A DNA stretch of 64,000 nt, taken from the NCBI RefSeq assembly GCF_002197845.1, contig NZ_NIDE01000020.1, forward strand, positions 419,460-483,459, read 5' to 3'. The notes under the pieces are model-generated. The model was given only the letters and a program-made list of their open reading frames with translations. It made no database searches and was not told the origin of the DNA. A program made the position numbers and the translations under genes. Positions 6,101 through 12,272 of the stretch are shown piece after piece (the stretch's first letter is position 1; every line of letters starts with the position of its first letter). Source of the DNA: Fimbriiglobus ruber (GTDB lineage Bacteria; Planctomycetota; Planctomycetia; Gemmatales; Gemmataceae).

Positions 6101-6865
6101 TCAAAGACGTACTGGCACTGCCGCTGAAGTGGGATTATTAATCGCGTCACGCAGTTCCACACCACTTGGCGCCCCTGCAACCTCGTAAAGATCGCGGTAG
6201 AGTCGGTCGAAGATGTAGGCCCCGAGTGAAAGCCCCTGTTCCACGCAATACCACGTCCGCGGGTCGTCGAGTGTCGGCTCGACCACGGCGAAGAACTCCT
6301 CCGCGTGCCGTTCGTCGATCGCCGCGTGAAGCTTGTAGTGGACTAACCGGTCGGCCGGCACCCACCCGTTGCGGACGACGATCCGTCCGATCGTCGCGGA
6401 AATCCCGGCGAACGCCTGTTCGATGACTCCCATGCAGCAAACGCCGATCGCGAGTTCGTCGAGAACGCACGCGGAGGCCAGGACACTGTTGAACGCGCGA
6501 ACGCACGGCCAAATCGGCATCGCGTCCAACTTGCTGGGGTCTGCGTCGATGGTCCGGAGGAACTGCTGGAAGGTGGTGTGGTGGAACGCCGATTCGTCGA
6601 ACTCGCCGTGTTCTTCGACCAGATTGTGCAGGATGTCCAACCTTCTTTTGGGGTCATCGATCCGGCCGACCAGGGCCGACATCGGCCGCGGAAAAAAAGT
6701 GACGGCGAAAAAGAACTGTTCCTGGGTTCGGCGGAAACACGGAAGGTCCATCGATCCGTCTTCCAGTGCCCGGAAGAACTGGTTGCCCAGAATGTTCACT
6801 TGCCCGAGTATTTCGCTTGCGCGGGTGGTGATCCGCGGCGCCCGGGATTCGGTCGACGTTGACAC
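6101..6865 (-). CDS. Heme-oxygenase-like diiron oxidase/oxygenase (PqqC/CADD/HDO superfamily)
   Basis: 254 aa from GTG 6865, with a GGAG box upstream, starting two bases after the stop of the preceding gene. The all-helical sequence has the metal-ligand pattern of the HDO superfamily: NLVEEHG (E84/E85), AFHHTTF (H95/H96), VIEQAF (E149), and HAAIDERHAEE (H180, D184, H187). Family members such as CADD, UndA, BesC and SznF use a labile diiron centre to cleave C-C bonds, decarboxylate or N-oxygenate amino-acid-like or fatty substrates; PqqC is a cofactor-free relative. It is the last gene of a three-gene unit with an aminocarboxypropyl transferase and a GNAT, which suggests it finishes the synthesis of a small amino-acid-derived product. 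The substrate is unknown. Confidence 0.78.
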   Translation of the reverse strand: MSTSTESRAPRITTRASEILGQVNILGNQFFRALEDGSMDLPCFRRTQEQFFFAVTFFPRPMSALVGRIDDPKRRLDILHNLVEEHGEFDESAFHHTTFQQFLRTIDADPSKLDAMPIWPCVRAFNSVLASACVLDELAIGVCCMGVIEQAFAGISATIGRIVVRNGWVPADRLVHYKLHAAIDERHAEEFFAVVEPTLDDPRTWYCVEQGLSLGAYIFDRLYRDLYEVAGAPSGVELRDAINNPTSAAVPVRL

Positions 6866-6867
6866 GG

Positions 6868-7812
6868 TCAAATCTCCGCGGTGTTGACGTTCCAAACGCT
6901 TGGCTGAAGTCCGGCACCATACACGATCGCCGGAGCGACGGTCACCGGAACATCCGGTAAGAGTTGGAGGATGGAATCGGTTTCTTCCAACGGAACTGCC
7001 ACGAATAGAGCCGGGAAGGTTCGCTCGAATGCTATCCCCAAGGCGGTTCGAAGAAGCGCCGCGCCACTTCCCGGACTGGCGTAACCAAATCCAGACAGGT
7101 GTGCGCTACGCAATTCCGTTCCATCGTTTGCAATCAACCGCTTGGCCCGAGCGGTATCTTCCACCCACCCGCCCGCCGACCCGTTCGGGGCGACCAAGCC
7201 GACCGGATCGATCTCGGATCGCACCGCCGATGTGCCGTCGTCTGTGTGATAGCGTCCGCGGGCTAGAGTCCGGAGTCTGGCCCGCGCGATATCCACGGGC
7301 ACGACCCATTCAGGTGCTATCCGTGCGCCAACTGACGTGTCGAAACGGAGTACGGAGACCCGCCCGACTTCGCGGAAGATCGGAATGCCGAGCCGGCCGG
7401 TGTAACGCTCGGGCGTGACCGGCGTTCCCCCCATCACCACCGCGAACGCGGCGACAACCTTATCCCCGACCCATTCCCGCGCGCCGTTCGCGAGGTCGGG
7501 TAACACGCGCCCGCCCCGAGCGGAGGGGGCAATCTTCAGATCCCCGAAATACGCGGCCGAACGACGTTCGCCGTCCGGAAGTACAAGATCGCGGACCGCC
7601 ACGCCGAGCGTGCCGACCACGCGACCGCCACGACAAGCAACCAAAGAGGTTGCCTCACCCATCGCGCGAAAGAACCGCGAATAGTCGGCCCCGTGAGAAA
7701 TCCGAAACCAACGTTCCGGGCCGAGCGGGTAGGTGAACTGTTGCTCGAATCGTTCCAACTCCGCGACCAGTTCGGCCGATAGGGTCGCGGACAGGGCGGT
7801 GAGTTCGGTCAT
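6868..7812 (-). CDS. GNAT-like acyltransferase
   Basis: 314 aa from ATG 7812, overlapping the stop of the upstream gene in an ATGA, so translation is probably coupled. The N-terminal half reads like a GNAT core: SLVACRGGRVVGTLGVAVRDL (strands 2-4), then AAYFGDLKIAPSARGGRVLPDL, where the R/G-rich turn sits at the acetyl-CoA pyrophosphate loop. The C-terminal half looks like a second, degenerate GNAT-type domain. It probably N- or O-acylates an amine made by the upstream aminocarboxypropyl transferase or used by the downstream diiron enzyme. That role is inferred from operon position only. Confidence 0.65.
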   Translation of the reverse strand: MTELTALSATLSAELVAELERFEQQFTYPLGPERWFRISHGADYSRFFRAMGEATSLVACRGGRVVGTLGVAVRDLVLPDGERRSAAYFGDLKIAPSARGGRVLPDLANGAREWVGDKVVAAFAVVMGGTPVTPERYTGRLGIPIFREVGRVSVLRFDTSVGARIAPEWVVPVDIARARLRTLARGRYHTDDGTSAVRSEIDPVGLVAPNGSAGGWVEDTARAKRLIANDGTELRSAHLSGFGYASPGSGAALLRTALGIAFERTFPALFVAVPLEETDSILQLLPDVPVTVAPAIVYGAGLQPSVWNVNTAEI

Positions 7813-8894
7813 CGCTTCCGCCCGAGATGAAGAGCCCGGTAAAAAAAACTCCGATCCCGCCGGTGTAACAAATCCGCGTCGTGGACATTCCACTCAAACG
7901 ACGACCCGGCCGCCGGAATGTCGAGCGTCGAGTTCAACTGCCGAATAAGAACTGTCCCGCCTGGTCTGAGTGCCTGAGCCGCGAGGTCGAGCGTCGCCCG
8001 CGCTTCGTCCGGTGTCAGCCAGTCGAGGATATTGGACAGGTGAACAAAGTCCGCTCGCCCGGTTTCTGATTGCAGAGCAGAAGCCATTGAGCCGCGGACG
8101 AACTCGGGCATTGGACTCGACCTGGGTTCGAGATCCAACCACGGGCTACGGGCACTGTCCGGGTAGCGACCGGCGAGCAACTGCCAGAGATACGGGTTGT
8201 CGGCAGCGGGGAGTGTCGCAAAGACATGACGAGTACGACGGGCAAAGTGCCGGGCGAACGGCTCGACCGGATTCTTGGTCGCTTCTAGCCCGAACAGAGT
8301 TACCAAATTCGGCAGGGCGAAGGCGTTATCGAACGCCACTTCGAGCCTGTCTCCCAGTCGAGTACCTGGCGCCACCAATCGAGCCTGCTCGGTCGGGTCC
8401 GACAAACTGAGAACGTGGGCCAGTTCGTCCCGGACATCCTTCAAGGCGTCGCCCAACGCGACAAAACACCGCTCGTACCGCCCCGCATAATCCGGTCCCA
8501 CTTCTGCGACAAACGGTGGAGGACCGAGGGCGTCAGCCGGGAGACCGAGACCAGACAGGCGAGATATCAGTGCGGCTGCCCGATCGGCCATCGACATCGG
8601 TGCGTGGCCGAGGATCGCGAGACGGTTGGCAGGTGAGTCGTTTAACAGACTCAGTTTGAGGGCGGTGAGGGCCAACTGCGCCGGGTTCGGATCGACGACG
8701 CTGAGGTGAGCAACATTCGGATGGGTCGCGAGTAGCGCGGCCGTACACCCGCCCGATGCGACCATGACGACCCGCGCCTCAGCGGGCAATCGGTCGGCGA
8801 CCCACCAGTCGATCAGCGGGTCTTCGCGAACCTGCGCGAATGCGATTGGCAGCCGCGCCGCCTCGGTCGCCCAGGTTTGAGAGAGCGGTGACAT
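7809..8894 (-). CDS. BtaA-like / DUF3419 SAM-dependent 3-amino-3-carboxypropyl transferase
   Basis: 361 aa. The SAM site VVMVASGGCTAALL (about residues 42-55) followed by SVVDPNPAQLALTALKLSLL is the DUF3419/BtaA signature (GSGGCN...DxNPAQ...ELK). BtaA transfers the 3-amino-3-carboxypropyl group of SAM to diacylglycerol, giving diacylglyceryl-homoserine for betaine lipids. A late methyltransferase-like stretch (LSNILDWLTPDEARATL, then ALRPGGTVLIRQLNS) is also typical. There is no BtaB N-methyltransferase nearby. Instead the gene overlaps a GNAT and is followed by a diiron oxygenase, so the homoserine-type product is probably acylated and oxidised instead of permethylated. It heads the three-gene unit. 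Confidence 0.78.
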   Translation of the reverse strand: MSPLSQTWATEAARLPIAFAQVREDPLIDWWVADRLPAEARVVMVASGGCTAALLATHPNVAHLSVVDPNPAQLALTALKLSLLNDSPANRLAILGHAPMSMADRAAALISRLSGLGLPADALGPPPFVAEVGPDYAGRYERCFVALGDALKDVRDELAHVLSLSDPTEQARLVAPGTRLGDRLEVAFDNAFALPNLVTLFGLEATKNPVEPFARHFARRTRHVFATLPAADNPYLWQLLAGRYPDSARSPWLDLEPRSSPMPEFVRGSMASALQSETGRADFVHLSNILDWLTPDEARATLDLAAQALRPGGTVLIRQLNSTLDIPAAGSSFEWNVHDADLLHRRDRSFFYRALHLGRKR

Positions 8895-8942: not shown

Positions 8943-9650
8943 CTACACTGCCGCCAGCCACGCCGCGGCGGCAACGGCTGCCGTTTCGACGCGGAGAACC
9001 CGCTTCCCCAAACTCACCGCCCGCCACTCTGCTGCTACTGCAGCGGTGACCTCGTCAGCCGTCATCCCACCCTCTGGCCCGATGGCGATCGCCACTCCTT
9101 GATGCACTTCCGCTGTAGATATCGTGTTGATGGCTGGTGCGGCAGCCGTGTGCAAGACGAGTTTGAGCGCAGGCAGGTCCGGCTGAACGAAGAAGTCGTC
9201 CCATTTTCGCGGCGGGTCGACCGACATCAGGACGTTTCGGCCGCACTGCTTACTCGCCTCGATCACCGCCCGCTCCATCTTCTCAACTTTGTCCTCCTTC
9301 GGGCGGACGACGGACCGCTCGGTCACCAGCGGAACGAATCGCGTCGCGCCGAGTTCGGTCAACTTCTCGATGAGGAAGTCGGCCCGATCACCCTTCGGCA
9401 ACGCGACGCCCACGATCAGCGGGAACCCGAGTTCACGGTCGGCAGCCAACGGTTTGGAAACGATCAGAAGGGCCGACTTCTTCCCGACAGATACGACTTC
9501 CGCGGGGTAGTCGTGACCATCGCCGTTGAACAACGTCAGGCGGTCGCCCGGGCCGAAGCGCCGGACGGTGGTGAGGTGGTGGGCTTCGGGGCCGTCGAAC
9601 ACGAACTCGCCCGGGGCCAGCTTGGATGAGGTATAGAAGCGATCAGACAT
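8943..9650 (-). CDS. rsmE: 16S rRNA (uracil-1498-N3)-methyltransferase RsmE
   Basis: 235 aa from ATG 9650 (an upstream GTG is less likely). N-terminal PUA-like part: RFYTSSKL, then HHLTTVRRFGPGD. SPOUT methyltransferase part: VALPKGDRADFLIEKLTELG and the knot motif AIGPEGGMTADEV, ending LGKRVLRVETAAVAAAAWL. These are the diagnostic RsmE motifs, and the length is normal. It methylates N3 of U1498 in the assembled 30S subunit. It follows ruvB by 60 bp on the same strand and precedes the DUF3419 operon. Confidence 0.93.
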   Translation of the reverse strand: MSDRFYTSSKLAPGEFVFDGPEAHHLTTVRRFGPGDRLTLFNGDGHDYPAEVVSVGKKSALLIVSKPLAADRELGFPLIVGVALPKGDRADFLIEKLTELGATRFVPLVTERSVVRPKEDKVEKMERAVIEASKQCGRNVLMSVDPPRKWDDFFVQPDLPALKLVLHTAAAPAINTISTAEVHQGVAIAIGPEGGMTADEVTAAVAAEWRAVSLGKRVLRVETAAVAAAAWLAAV

Positions 9651-9710
9651 GAGCCGTCCGCGAAGGGGGTCGTTTGGCGACGTGGGTAATTTCACGCTCC
9701 AAGATTCGCG

Positions 9711-10751
9711 TCAGTCGAACAGGGACGGCCCCTTCTCATCGGGCCTGGGCTTGGGAAACGGCTTCTGCAATAGAGCGAACGCCTTGGGCGTCGCCATCCG
9801 GCCGCGGGGCGACCTGACCAAAAACTGTTCGCGGAGCAGGTACGGCTCGATCTCGTCGGTCAGCGTGTCGGTCGAAATGTTCATCGTCGCCCCGATCGCT
9901 TCAACGCCGGTCGGCCCGCCGGAGAAGACGTCGATCAATACCTCCAGATACCGGCGGTCGTTCTTATCCAGTCCGTCGGCGTCGACCTCTTTTACGTCCA
10001 GCGCTTCGTGGGCGAGGGGTTCGGAGATCGTCCCGTCGCTCCGGGCGGCGGAATAGATCCGTGCCCAGTGGAGTAGAGAGTTCGCCACTCGCGGCGTCCC
10101 CCGGCTGCGGCGGGCGATTTCGTTGCAGGCTCCGTCCGAAACAGGCGTATTCAGTTTCTTTGCATTTATGCCGACGATCTGGGCGAGTTCGCCGATAGTG
10201 TAATAGTCGAGGTGCTCGCGCATTTTGAAGCGGTCGCGCATCGGCCCGGAGAGCATGCCGCCGCGCGTCGTTGCCCCGATGAGTGTGAAGCGCTTGAGGG
10301 TCATACTAATGGTCCGCGCATTCACCCCTTCGCCGAGGACGATGTCGATGCGGAAATCTTCCATCGCGGGGTAAATGAACTCTTCCACCACGCGGGGCAT
10401 GCGGTGGATTTCGTCGATGAACAGGATGCTCCCCTCTTCCAGGTTGGTGAGGAACGGGAGCATGTCGGCCGGCTTGGAGAGCGCGGGGCCGCTGGTCATC
10501 TGAATGGTGGTGCTGAGTTCGTTCGGCAGGACGGTAGCGAACGTCGTCTTGCCCAAGCCCGGTGGACCGTCGAAAAGGATGTGCCCCAGCGGTTCCTTGA
10601 GCTTCCGCGACGCGTCGACCGCGATTTGCAACCGCTCGGCCACCTTTTTCTGCCCGATGACTTCGCGCAACAGCTTCGGCCGCAGCGCCGCGTCGCGCTT
10701 GCGGTCGTCGTCGGACGGGCCACCGGGGCCGATGATCTTTTCGCGTGCCAT
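9711..10751 (-). CDS. ruvB: Holliday junction branch migration DNA helicase RuvB
   Basis: 346 aa. AAA+ motor of the RuvAB complex. Seen: VIGQKKVAERLQIAV, Walker A DGPPGLGKTTFA, Walker B FIDEIHRM, sensor IGATTRGGMLSGPMRDRF, and a C-terminal winged helix ending YLLREQFLVRSPRGRMATPKAF. It is full length with all ATPase motifs intact. It lies downstream of ruvA and ruvC in the order C-A-B and presumably belongs to one repair operon with rsmE. Confidence 0.96.
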   Translation of the reverse strand: MAREKIIGPGGPSDDDRKRDAALRPKLLREVIGQKKVAERLQIAVDASRKLKEPLGHILFDGPPGLGKTTFATVLPNELSTTIQMTSGPALSKPADMLPFLTNLEEGSILFIDEIHRMPRVVEEFIYPAMEDFRIDIVLGEGVNARTISMTLKRFTLIGATTRGGMLSGPMRDRFKMREHLDYYTIGELAQIVGINAKKLNTPVSDGACNEIARRSRGTPRVANSLLHWARIYSAARSDGTISEPLAHEALDVKEVDADGLDKNDRRYLEVLIDVFSGGPTGVEAIGATMNISTDTLTDEIEPYLLREQFLVRSPRGRMATPKAFALLQKPFPKPRPDEKGPSLFD

Positions 10752-10804
10752 ATGTCCAACTCACGTCAGCTATGTGAGGAGTATGCCTGTTCTTCGCACG
10801 GCGG

Positions 10805-11464
10805 CTATCCCCTGCTGTAAACCAGCGTAATCGCTTCCTCGACCGACTTGAACGCCTTGCCGGAGGTCAACAACTGGTCGAGTTTCGTGCGGGCTTCGAG
10901 CGGCGGGTGCCCGAGTGACATGAGGACTTGGTAAATGTCCTCGATCAACTGTCCGTCTGCCGTACTCGCGGCCGTGCCGCCTTTCGGCGAACCGCTCGCG
11001 CCGTCGGCCCCACCCTCCACGACCTGGCCGCCCATCACGGCGAACTTTGTCACCTTCCGCTTGAGCGTGGTGACGATCTGTTCGGCCGTCGCCGCCCCGA
11101 TGCCGGGGAGCGTGGTCAGCCATTTCGAGTCCTGGCGGCTGATCGCGTCCGCGATCTCCTTCACCGGGCGGGAGAGCGCCTTGAGTGCCTTCTTCACGCC
11201 GATCTTTTCGACCGTGCAAAACAGGTCGAAAAACTCTAGCTCGGCTTCTGTGTTGAACCCCACCCGACGGGGTATGAACCGGCTCGACGATTGATTGCCT
11301 TCGAGGTACTCGGTCGTGTGAAACGTGACTTCCTGCCCGGTCTTCAACTGCAACTGCCGGCGCACCATCTCCGGCACCATCACCTGATACTCGAACGGCC
11401 CCACCTGGAGCCGGACCTCGTCGTCCAGCACACGATTCAAAACGCCGGTCATCTTGGTAATCAT
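10805..11464 (-). CDS. ruvA: Holliday junction DNA helicase subunit RuvA
   Basis: 219 aa from ATG 11464 (MITKMTGVLNRV). The longer frame upstream runs into a repeat and is not used. OB-fold N-terminus (GVLNRVLDDEVRLQVGPFEYQVMVP), then helix-hairpin-helix region (LPGIGAATAEQIVTTLKRK), a Gly/Ser-rich linker, and a C-terminal RuvB-binding domain (MSLGHPPLEARTKLDQLL). It binds four-way junctions and loads RuvB. The 5' leader contains one arm of the ladder repeat that also overlaps the ruvC end. Confidence 0.93.
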   Translation of the reverse strand: MITKMTGVLNRVLDDEVRLQVGPFEYQVMVPEMVRRQLQLKTGQEVTFHTTEYLEGNQSSSRFIPRRVGFNTEAELEFFDLFCTVEKIGVKKALKALSRPVKEIADAISRQDSKWLTTLPGIGAATAEQIVTTLKRKVTKFAVMGGQVVEGGADGASGSPKGGTAASTADGQLIEDIYQVLMSLGHPPLEARTKLDQLLTSGKAFKSVEEAITLVYSRG

Positions 11465-11478
11465 GATCCAAACCAGTA

Positions 11479-11568
11479 GCCACAAATGAATACAGATTGA
11501 CACGGATCAGAATCGTCAGGATTTATTCTTCTTCCGATCCGTCTTCATCCGTGTTGATCTGTGGCGAA
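11479..11568. repeat. Ladder-type inverted repeat overlapping the 3' end of ruvC
   Basis: The arms GCCACAAATGAATACAGATT... (from 11479) and the complement of ...GTTGATCTGTGGC (to about 11567) pair over about 34 positions with some mismatches. Each arm is built of 10-11-base units around CACGGAT/CAGAT. The right arm is coding: it specifies the last residues of RuvC (PQINTDEDGSEEE) and its stop codon. The same style of element occurs at 12273, 42048 and 60154. Confidence 0.75.
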
Positions 11569-12128
11569 TTTTCTTCGTCCCCGAACAGGGCCGAGCGGTT
11601 GACGCCGGTGAACGTCACCGACCGGGAGCCGGTCGTGATCGTCTTGGCGGTCGTGTAGTAGTGACACAGGGCGATCGCGAGGGCGTCGGAGACGTCGTGC
11701 GGTTCGGGCGCGCGGGCGAGGCCGAGTTCGCGGGTGATCGCGGCCTGGATCTGTTCCTTGCCCGCCCGCCCGTGGCCGGTGATCGTTTTCTTGACCCGGG
11801 TGGACGGGTAACTCAGCACGTCGATCCCCTTCTGGGCCCCGGCCAGGAAGAAGCAACCCCGGGCGTGGGCCATCAGGATGGCGGTCCGCGGGTGGTCGTA
11901 GTGGGCGTACAGTTGCTCGACGACCATGATCGTCGGCTTCCACTGGTCGAGAACTTCCACCAGCCCATCGTAAAGGACTTTGACCCGCCGGGCCATGTCC
12001 GCAGGATCGCGGCCGGCCGCCGACCGGATTACGCCGGCCTCGCAGACGCGCGGGCCGGCGTCGGTCACGTCGAGAATGCCGTACCCTGTTGTCTGGAGGC
12101 CGGGGTCGAGGCCGATGATGCGAGCCAT
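11523..12128 (-). CDS. ruvC: Crossover junction endodeoxyribonuclease RuvC
   Basis: 201 aa from ATG 12128 (MARIIGLDPG). The Holliday junction resolvase active site is visible: D8 in GLDPG, E71 in MVVEQLY, and H144/D148 in PHDVSDALAIAL. The core would end around residue 170. The last 16 or so residues (from ENSPQINTDEDG) are acidic, unlike RuvC tails, and are encoded by an intergenic ladder repeat that has supplied the stop codon. It heads the ruvC-ruvA-ruvB set on the minus strand. Confidence 0.93.
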   Translation of the reverse strand: MARIIGLDPGLQTTGYGILDVTDAGPRVCEAGVIRSAAGRDPADMARRVKVLYDGLVEVLDQWKPTIMVVEQLYAHYDHPRTAILMAHARGCFFLAGAQKGIDVLSYPSTRVKKTITGHGRAGKEQIQAAITRELGLARAPEPHDVSDALAIALCHYYTTAKTITTGSRSVTFTGVNRSALFGDEENSPQINTDEDGSEEE

Positions 12129-12272
12129 GAGGACGGTCCAAGGAGTAGCACGGCGAACGCACCCCACCGAGGCGCACAACGAGCCCATCGGCATTTCCGC
12201 CGGCCGTCGTTTGCCGTTTGTGCCATAGAGGTGAACTTTTTTCTACCCCACCTGCCGTACCATCCCGATTTT

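Follow-up and report, generated by a model that had tools for sequence, protein, structure and literature searches.

What could be made by an enzyme set that joins a DUF3419 protein, a GNAT-type acyltransferase and a heme-oxygenase-like dimetal oxidase (HDO)? This question is raised by three adjacent genes in a 64,000-nucleotide stretch of the Fimbriiglobus ruber genome (contig NZ_NIDE01000020.1, positions 419,460 to 483,459), hereafter called the window, in whose own numbering all coordinates are given. The genes form one minus-strand unit running from 8894 to 6101. The first (7809..8894, 361 aa) encodes the DUF3419 protein, a predicted S-adenosylmethionine (SAM)-dependent 3-amino-3-carboxypropyl transferase; the second (6868..7812, 314 aa) encodes the acyltransferase, whose sequence ends in ...NTAEI; and the third (6101..6865, 254 aa), which begins with a GTG start, encodes the HDO. 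At the first junction, GCGATGACC, the TGA stop and the ATG start share the four bases ATGA (7809..7812, minus strand), and at the second, TTTGACCGTGTCA, the stop codon is followed by the bases CC (6866..6867, minus strand) and then by the GTG start. The single expression unit described in a first-pass annotation of the window, with its overlap and two-base gap, could thus be read directly from the sequence. We found that the trio is a real, widespread module, whose three enzymes almost certainly act in one pathway, and that the second enzyme is predicted to adopt the architecture of N-myristoyltransferase (NMT).

Conservation of the trio

The same seven genomes carried the HDO (E <= 1e-56) and a close DUF3419 protein (E <= 1e-96), a coincidence greater than chance, among 99 that comprised the window's own, two of the same genus and others from its family, order and class; seven further genomes had only weak DUF3419 matches. 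When an even sample of the phylum (392 genomes) was searched, the HDO was found in 18 genomes, the GNAT profile matched in 17, and both occurred in 16. All three exceptions lay at contig ends: the 3,190-base contig of G322 ends within the HDO gene, a partial GNAT gene adjoins the HDO gene in G300, and the GNAT gene is cut in G161. A close DUF3419 protein (E <= 1e-57, profile A4) was present in 17 genomes of this sample, and a partial one adjoins the GNAT gene in G226; 21 other genomes had more distant DUF3419 proteins only. The HDO gene lay on a separate contig from the other two genes in G226, G240, G267 and G279, some of these contigs measuring no more than a few kb.

A scan of the genomes of 84,980 species with the HDO alignment gave 154 relatives, the best 80 of which were taken as loci for comparison. 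By record title, they belonged to Planctomycetota, Gammaproteobacteria (including Legionella and Hahella), Poribacteria, Verrucomicrobiota, Melainabacteria, Rickettsiaceae and others, mostly as metagenome-assembled genomes, and the cultured carriers included Stieleria tagensis, Roseiconus nitratireducens and Hahella ganghwensis. The trio was complete in 72 of the 80 loci, which bore out the expectation that the three genes would be found together elsewhere. Four arrangements were seen, namely DUF3419-GNAT-HDO (40 loci), DUF3419-HDO-GNAT (30 loci, one with a second DUF3419 gene after it), HDO-DUF3419-GNAT (one locus) and a trio with the GNAT gene on the other strand (one locus). That the order is shuffled while the content is kept speaks for function and not only for recent common descent. 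The incomplete loci comprised two cut at contig ends and six with the HDO alone, two of which (L101 and L103) apparently match G267 and G240, where the DUF3419 and GNAT genes sit together elsewhere in the genome. The pairwise distances of the three proteins over 40 taxa were also correlated (r 0.79-0.91, with none of 2000 permutations as high), the shared ancestry of the hosts contributing to this value. The alignments held the window's protein with those of 40 of the 80 loci (A3 and A5) or of 39 (A4, from which L154 was left out).

Clustering of neighbouring open reading frames (ORFs) of at least 90 aa detected no conserved fourth family beyond 12 of the 80 loci. Two clusters reached 12 loci each: in one, both members scanned were ATP-binding proteins of ABC transporters, and the other occurred in Poribacteria. 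A conserved fourth gene was set aside on this account. A phage-borne origin was likewise set aside, as the HDO had no match in the phage collection. Upstream of the trio in the window, on the same strand (8943-12194), lie genes for an RsmE-type RNA methyltransferase, 48 bases off, and for RuvB, RuvA and RuvC; a creatininase-family gene lies downstream on the opposite strand. None of these neighbours recurs as a fourth family at the other loci. On the Mycobacterium riyadhense plasmid NZ_OY970457.1 (L159), the order DUF3419-HDO-GNAT is followed by a gene for an MmpL-family transporter, and the whole sits among PE/PPE and integrase genes.

The second enzyme and its counterparts

The protein encoded by the second gene matched the GNAT families of Pfam below their cut-offs (Acetyltransf_9 at 16.3 bits and Acetyltransf_1 at 16.0 bits). 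Its AlphaFold2 model, with a predicted local distance difference test score (pLDDT) of 95.2 and a predicted template modelling score of 0.91, was compared with known structures by Foldseek, and the 50 best matches listed were all N-myristoyltransferases or an NMT1-containing complex (best E 1.9e-13). NMT structures also made up all 50 matches listed when the model was re-aligned, and the re-alignment to human NMT2 (residues 155-496 of 6pau with residues 1-314 of the model) gave Z 20.0 and a root-mean-square deviation (rmsd) of 3.8 over 283 aligned residues at 12% identity. In the predicted model, two GNAT domains are set in the NMT arrangement over the whole protein. The first-pass annotation had called this protein a GNAT, which held for the fold; the model specifies it further as an NMT-type double GNAT, an assignment that is new in this analysis and suggests that the enzyme acylates an alpha-amine, perhaps with a long chain.

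The C-terminus of the protein was conserved. The terminal residue was Ile in 67 of 74 ORFs, where the motif (T/S)-x-(E/D/Q)-I stood immediately before the stop, and the other seven ended in V (L089) or L (L131 and L143), had ambiguous bases after SAEI (L092), lay at a contig end (L126) or had differing ORF ends (L079 and L102). As judged from the end points of the aligned ranges only, residue 314 of the model was the last one aligned and stood opposite NMT residue 496, 455, 451, 492 or 410, the last four of which we take to be the C-termini of the respective NMT structures. The carboxylate of the C-terminal Gln496 is reported as the catalytic base of human NMT1 (PMC7048800), and a review describes a base of this kind as unique to NMT among GNATs (PMC4964394). 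The NMT fold and the conserved C-terminus together suggest that the trio enzyme has the predicted architecture of NMT, and that its C-terminal carboxylate probably serves as the catalytic base as well. The enzyme resembles eukaryotic NMT in the full-length double-GNAT fold and in a conserved C-terminus placed at the end of the alignment to that of NMT, but differs from it in being bacterial, in having no detectable sequence family match and, presumably, in having an acceptor other than a protein. Bacterial and archaeal NMT-type folds were reported in 2025 from structure databases in a paper on human HisAT (PMC12219266), the consulted part of which makes no mention of their gene surroundings. 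A search of plasmids with the NMT-type protein of a Poribacterium gave no match.

The NMT fold would also suit a different role, in which the enzyme acylates the N-terminus of a protein or peptide and the other two enzymes modify the same protein. We regard this as very improbable. We know of no DUF3419 protein that acts on proteins, and no fourth gene accompanied the trio beyond 12 of the 80 loci, although the clustering, with its lower limit of 90 aa, would miss a short precursor.

Additional evidence on the role of the second enzyme came from the distant DUF3419 loci of the phylum sample. Stretches of about 3-10 kb around 25 of the 27 (all except G116 and G134) were inspected with profiles for which two of these loci supplied part of the sequences. 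At G245 (L167/L191) and G422 (L173/L193), the genes next to DUF3419 encode a FeeM-type N-acyl amino acid synthase and an HDO different from that of the trio, and at G345 (L192) a FeeM-HDO pair lies about 2.2 kb from it. The Deefgea piscis plasmid NZ_CP054144.1 (L162) carries the genes for a FeeM-like protein, an HDO, a DUF3419 protein and adenosylmethionine decarboxylase, in this order. The FeeM match in Pfam was above the cut-off at G422 (28.8 vs 27) and below it on the Deefgea piscis plasmid (17.4 bits, E 0.004), and the proteins at G245 and G345 were detected solely by a profile built from the pair (E 1e-41 and 1e-27). FeeM is an enzyme of the GNAT superfamily, and the FeeM family (PF21926) had no match among the 41 trio members examined. 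On these assignments, acyltransferases from two GNAT subfamilies apparently take part in similar chemistry. Acyl groups on acyl carrier protein, often long-chain ones, serve as substrates of N-acyl amino acid synthases (PMC11631085, PMC8762209), and the occurrence of a FeeM-type enzyme with the same two partner classes makes N-acylation, probably with a fatty chain, the likeliest role of the trio's acyltransferase. At another distant locus (G251:C109, L188), a distant DUF3419 gene shares four bases with the gene for a distant NMT-type protein (E 3e-9); no HDO was found in the stretch covered there.

The DUF3419 protein and the HDO

The first protein matched PF11899 (DUF3419) at 68.3 bits, well above the curated cut-off of 28.2 in Pfam. 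We take this family to include BtaA, the enzyme that uses the 3-amino-3-carboxypropyl group of SAM. The AlphaFold2 model (pLDDT 96.2) showed a fold of methyltransferase type, into which a large helical segment is inserted at roughly residues 88-254, and the best fold match was a general methyltransferase fold (Z 12.9, rmsd 2.7, 163 aligned residues). Neither BtaA nor another aminocarboxypropyl transferase was named among the fold matches listed, and a sequence profile of the DUF3419 set had no match in the PDB. The positions invariant in 40 sequences include E24, D25, S47, G48, G49, Q73, N288, D291, W292 and R318. A relative from the same phylum (L170), which scores 400.5 bits to PF11899, carries the motifs WEDPR and SAGCN, in place of which the trio proteins have REDP and SGGCT. 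From this score and these motifs, L170 is presumed to be a canonical BtaA-type relative, no characterised BtaA having been compared; none of its four scanned neighbours was a methyltransferase. The earlier designation as BtaA-like would therefore hold only at the family level, as membership is supported by the Pfam match and the presumed canonical residues are replaced. The protein was the only DUF3419 member found in the genome of the window.

The family assignment bears on the possibility that the trio makes the ordinary betaine lipid diacylglyceryl-trimethylhomoserine (DGTS), with BtaB encoded elsewhere in the genome. The BtaA/BtaB pathway shares with the trio a DUF3419 protein and, as family knowledge has it, the use of the 3-amino-3-carboxypropyl group of SAM. 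However, an HDO and an N-acyltransferase would have no role in that pathway, N-acylation would block trimethylation, and the residues presumed canonical for BtaA are changed. The statement of the first-pass annotation that no BtaB accompanies the trio also agreed with our scans: the only methyltransferase among the nine window neighbours scanned was of the rRNA type, and none occurred among 30 neighbour proteins scanned with Pfam at other loci, the rest of the genome not having been searched for BtaB. DGTS synthesis is hardly credible on these grounds.

Two further settings of DUF3419 genes were observed. On the Rhizobium plasmid CP041205.1 (L163), the gene stands in a row with genes for ketoacyl-ACP (acyl carrier protein) synthase III, an oxidoreductase, a metallo-beta-lactamase-fold protein and a CoF synthetase, apparently a biosynthetic cluster of another kind. 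In Legionella steigerwaltii (L143:11635-14730), the trio is followed by a second, distant DUF3419 gene and a gene for an ABC_membrane_2/SbmA-like transporter.

The third protein matched Haem_oxygenas_2 (PF14518) at 64.2 bits (cut-off 28.9 in Pfam). Comparison of the profile of 41 HDO sequences with the PDB detected CADD (E 9e-14), a second 4-aminobenzoate synthase (9pj4), BesC (7twa) and HrmI (9n1a). In the alignment with CADD (CT610, 1rcw), E81, H88, E142, H174, D178 and H181, which we take to be its metal ligands, correspond to E85, H95, E149, H180, D184 and H187 of the window HDO, and all six are identical in the 41 aligned HDOs, predicting a complete ligand set. The first-pass annotation had proposed these ligands with alternatives at two positions; the six residues above stood, and neither of the alternatives, E84 (conserved in 40 of 41) and H96 (conserved in 10 of 41), aligned with a CADD ligand. 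Q48, R75, N81, H86, F125, H176 and Y177 were also invariant. The trio HDO is thus a profile-level relative of the CADD-type 4-aminobenzoate synthases, BesC and HrmI that keeps the ligand positions. It differs from CADD, which uses a self-sacrificing Tyr27 and Lys152 (PMC11965152), in having F31 (F in 30 and L in 10 of 41) at the position of the tyrosine and a gap beside I159 at that of the amine-donor lysine. Since neither residue is kept, a CADD-type 4-aminobenzoate synthase was rejected. The substrates of characterised HDOs are mainly amino and fatty acids, and several of the enzymes bind the carboxylate of the substrate on iron (PMC13108848, PMC13185094); by analogy, a homoserine-like product of the DUF3419 enzyme would suit an HDO.

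A proposed pathway

From the gene content, conservation, ligand positions and predicted folds described above, we propose the following reactions, order and product. In the first step, the DUF3419 enzyme would move the 3-amino-3-carboxypropyl group from SAM onto an acceptor, leaving a homoserine-like alpha-amino acid head, as its family suggests. In the second, the NMT-type enzyme would place an acyl chain, probably a fatty one, on the alpha-amine, the carboxylate of its own C-terminus acting as base, a step proposed because of the fold, the conserved C-terminus and the replacement by FeeM-type enzymes. In the third, the HDO, with its apparently complete ligand set, would activate O2 and oxidise the carboxylate-bearing product. 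The outcome, by analogy with UndA, BesC and FlcE, may be decarboxylation, C-C cleavage, desaturation or N-oxygenation; on an N-acyl amino acid with a free carboxylate, a UndA-like reaction would give an enamide by decarboxylation, a BesC-like one C-C cleavage and a FlcE-like one N-oxygenation. The favoured acceptor is a lipid alcohol such as diacylglycerol, which is the weakest part of the proposal.

The SAM-derived head, N-acylated and then oxidised, that the first-pass annotation had suggested remains the best reading, with added support from the FeeM-HDO-DUF3419 assemblies; its acceptor, order and product are put forward as a model. N-acylation of the transferred amino acid is reasonably likely, and the same can be said of a long acyl chain. 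The first two steps taken together with action of the HDO on their product are marginally favoured, and a lipid acceptor is conceivable but doubtful. The full combination, a new class of bacterial lipid in which a lipid alcohol bears a SAM-derived head with an extra N-linked fatty chain, added by a bacterial relative of eukaryotic NMT, and is then decarboxylated or cleaved by the HDO to, for example, an enamide or vinyl ether, is put forward only tentatively.

Genes of lipid metabolism were found at part of the loci. A fatty acid desaturase gene stands beside the trio in nine of the 80 (L082, L084, L085, L113, L116, L117, L120, L136 and L152), joined in five of them (L082, L084, L085, L117 and L136) by a gene for a PAP2_3-type protein, and a desaturase fragment was present in L081. 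The desaturase gene is placed variably, upstream of the DUF3419 gene, downstream of the HDO gene or between, and all the loci bearing it belong, by record title, to Planctomycetota or Verrucomicrobiota. A fatty acid desaturase is likewise encoded in the putative stieleriacine cluster (PMC7293339). The proposal shares the fatty N-acylation of amino acids with the stieleriacines and with FeeM-type N-acyl amino acid synthases; unlike these, the window acyltransferase has no FeeM match, and DUF3419 and HDO proteins find no mention in the consulted part of PMC7293339. The bacterial aminolipids made by OlsBA, GlsB and OlsH/OlsI are likewise lipids in which an amino acid is N-acylated by a fatty chain (PMC11631085, PMC12493201), but the amino acid of the trio's product would be built from SAM on the acceptor and then oxidised, by other enzymes.

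The HDO allows another reading, in which the product is a soluble metal chelator: the DUF3419 enzyme would act on a small molecule, the HDO would N-oxygenate an amine as SznF, HrmI and FlcE do, and the GNAT would add a short acyl group to give a hydroxamate-like ligand. Some HDOs are established N-oxygenases (PMC13108848), and on the route to a thiohydroxamate FlcE both N-hydroxylates an amino acid and removes its carboxylate oxidatively (PMC11363339). The fluopsin C pathway, to which FlcE and FlcD belong, resembles the proposal in that HDOs work on a modified amino acid at its alpha-amino acid end, but it is cysteine-derived and, as described in the consulted part of PMC11363339, has no aminocarboxypropyl transferase. 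Exporter genes adjoin some loci (MmpL in L159, the ABC transporter in L143), and DUF3419 members also occur in other apparent biosynthetic clusters. A chelator is nevertheless unlikely, as no fourth family, transporter or other, extends beyond 12 of the 80 loci, and the FeeM-type replacement and the desaturase and PAP2 neighbours point to fatty chains.

Several observations weigh against an N-acylated, probably fatty product common to the trio. As to the acyltransferase, the NMT families were absent from the 11 Pfam families matched by the 41 members at E <= 10 (with filters that drop most matches above E ~0.1), and NMT was absent from the PDB sequence-profile matches up to E 10, the NMT likeness being one of fold only. 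As FeeM also belongs to the GNAT superfamily, its replacement of the NMT-type enzyme amounts to a swap between distant subfamilies. HisAT, which shares the double-GNAT fold, is most active with short acyl chains, while still using myristoyl- and palmitoyl-coenzyme A (PMC12219266). The last point, together with Pfam matches that are mainly to generic acetyltransferase families, would fit an acetyltransferase like HisAT, whose soluble N-acetyl amino acid the HDO would oxidise to give a small molecule or signal. This is quite unlikely, given that NMT accounted for all 50 best matches listed in both the Foldseek search and the re-alignment and that the parallel assembly uses a FeeM-type acyltransferase.

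As to lipid context, no desaturase or PAP2 gene was found in 70 of the 80 loci, apart from a weak, uncounted 61-residue desaturase match in L130, nor among the nine window neighbours scanned; elsewhere in the genome of the window, only a 30%-identical desaturase relative was detected, and the fused desaturase-PAP2 protein had no match there. As to the association itself, the spread of the trio is patchy, and both same-genus genomes searched (86-87% complete) lacked the HDO and DUF3419 genes. The profiles used detected no HDO or acyltransferase gene at 21 of the 25 inspected distant DUF3419 loci, so that DUF3419 alone does not imply this pathway, and the HDO occurred without the other two genes in six of the 80 loci. 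Two Streptomyces plasmids (NZ_CP108083.1, L160, and NZ_CP108735.1, L161), inspected out of six Streptomyces records, carry a 48%-identical HDO with no DUF3419 or clear NMT-type gene; one weak GNAT match (E 3e-5) lies some 8 kb off. In both plasmids the HDO gene follows one for an EF-hand protein at a distance of 130 bases.

Among the papers listed by the literature search, none was on DUF3419 together with an HDO, and an account under other names is possible. The trio recurs across many phyla, including cultured species, and its product was not found in the literature. If the proposal of an N-acylated, SAM-derived lipid is true, NMT would be related to, or might even stem from, enzymes that make small-molecule lipids and do not modify proteins. 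Through the trio, the role of bacterial NMT-type enzymes would become directly testable, and the trio would add to the HDO family a member whose likely substrate can be named beforehand.

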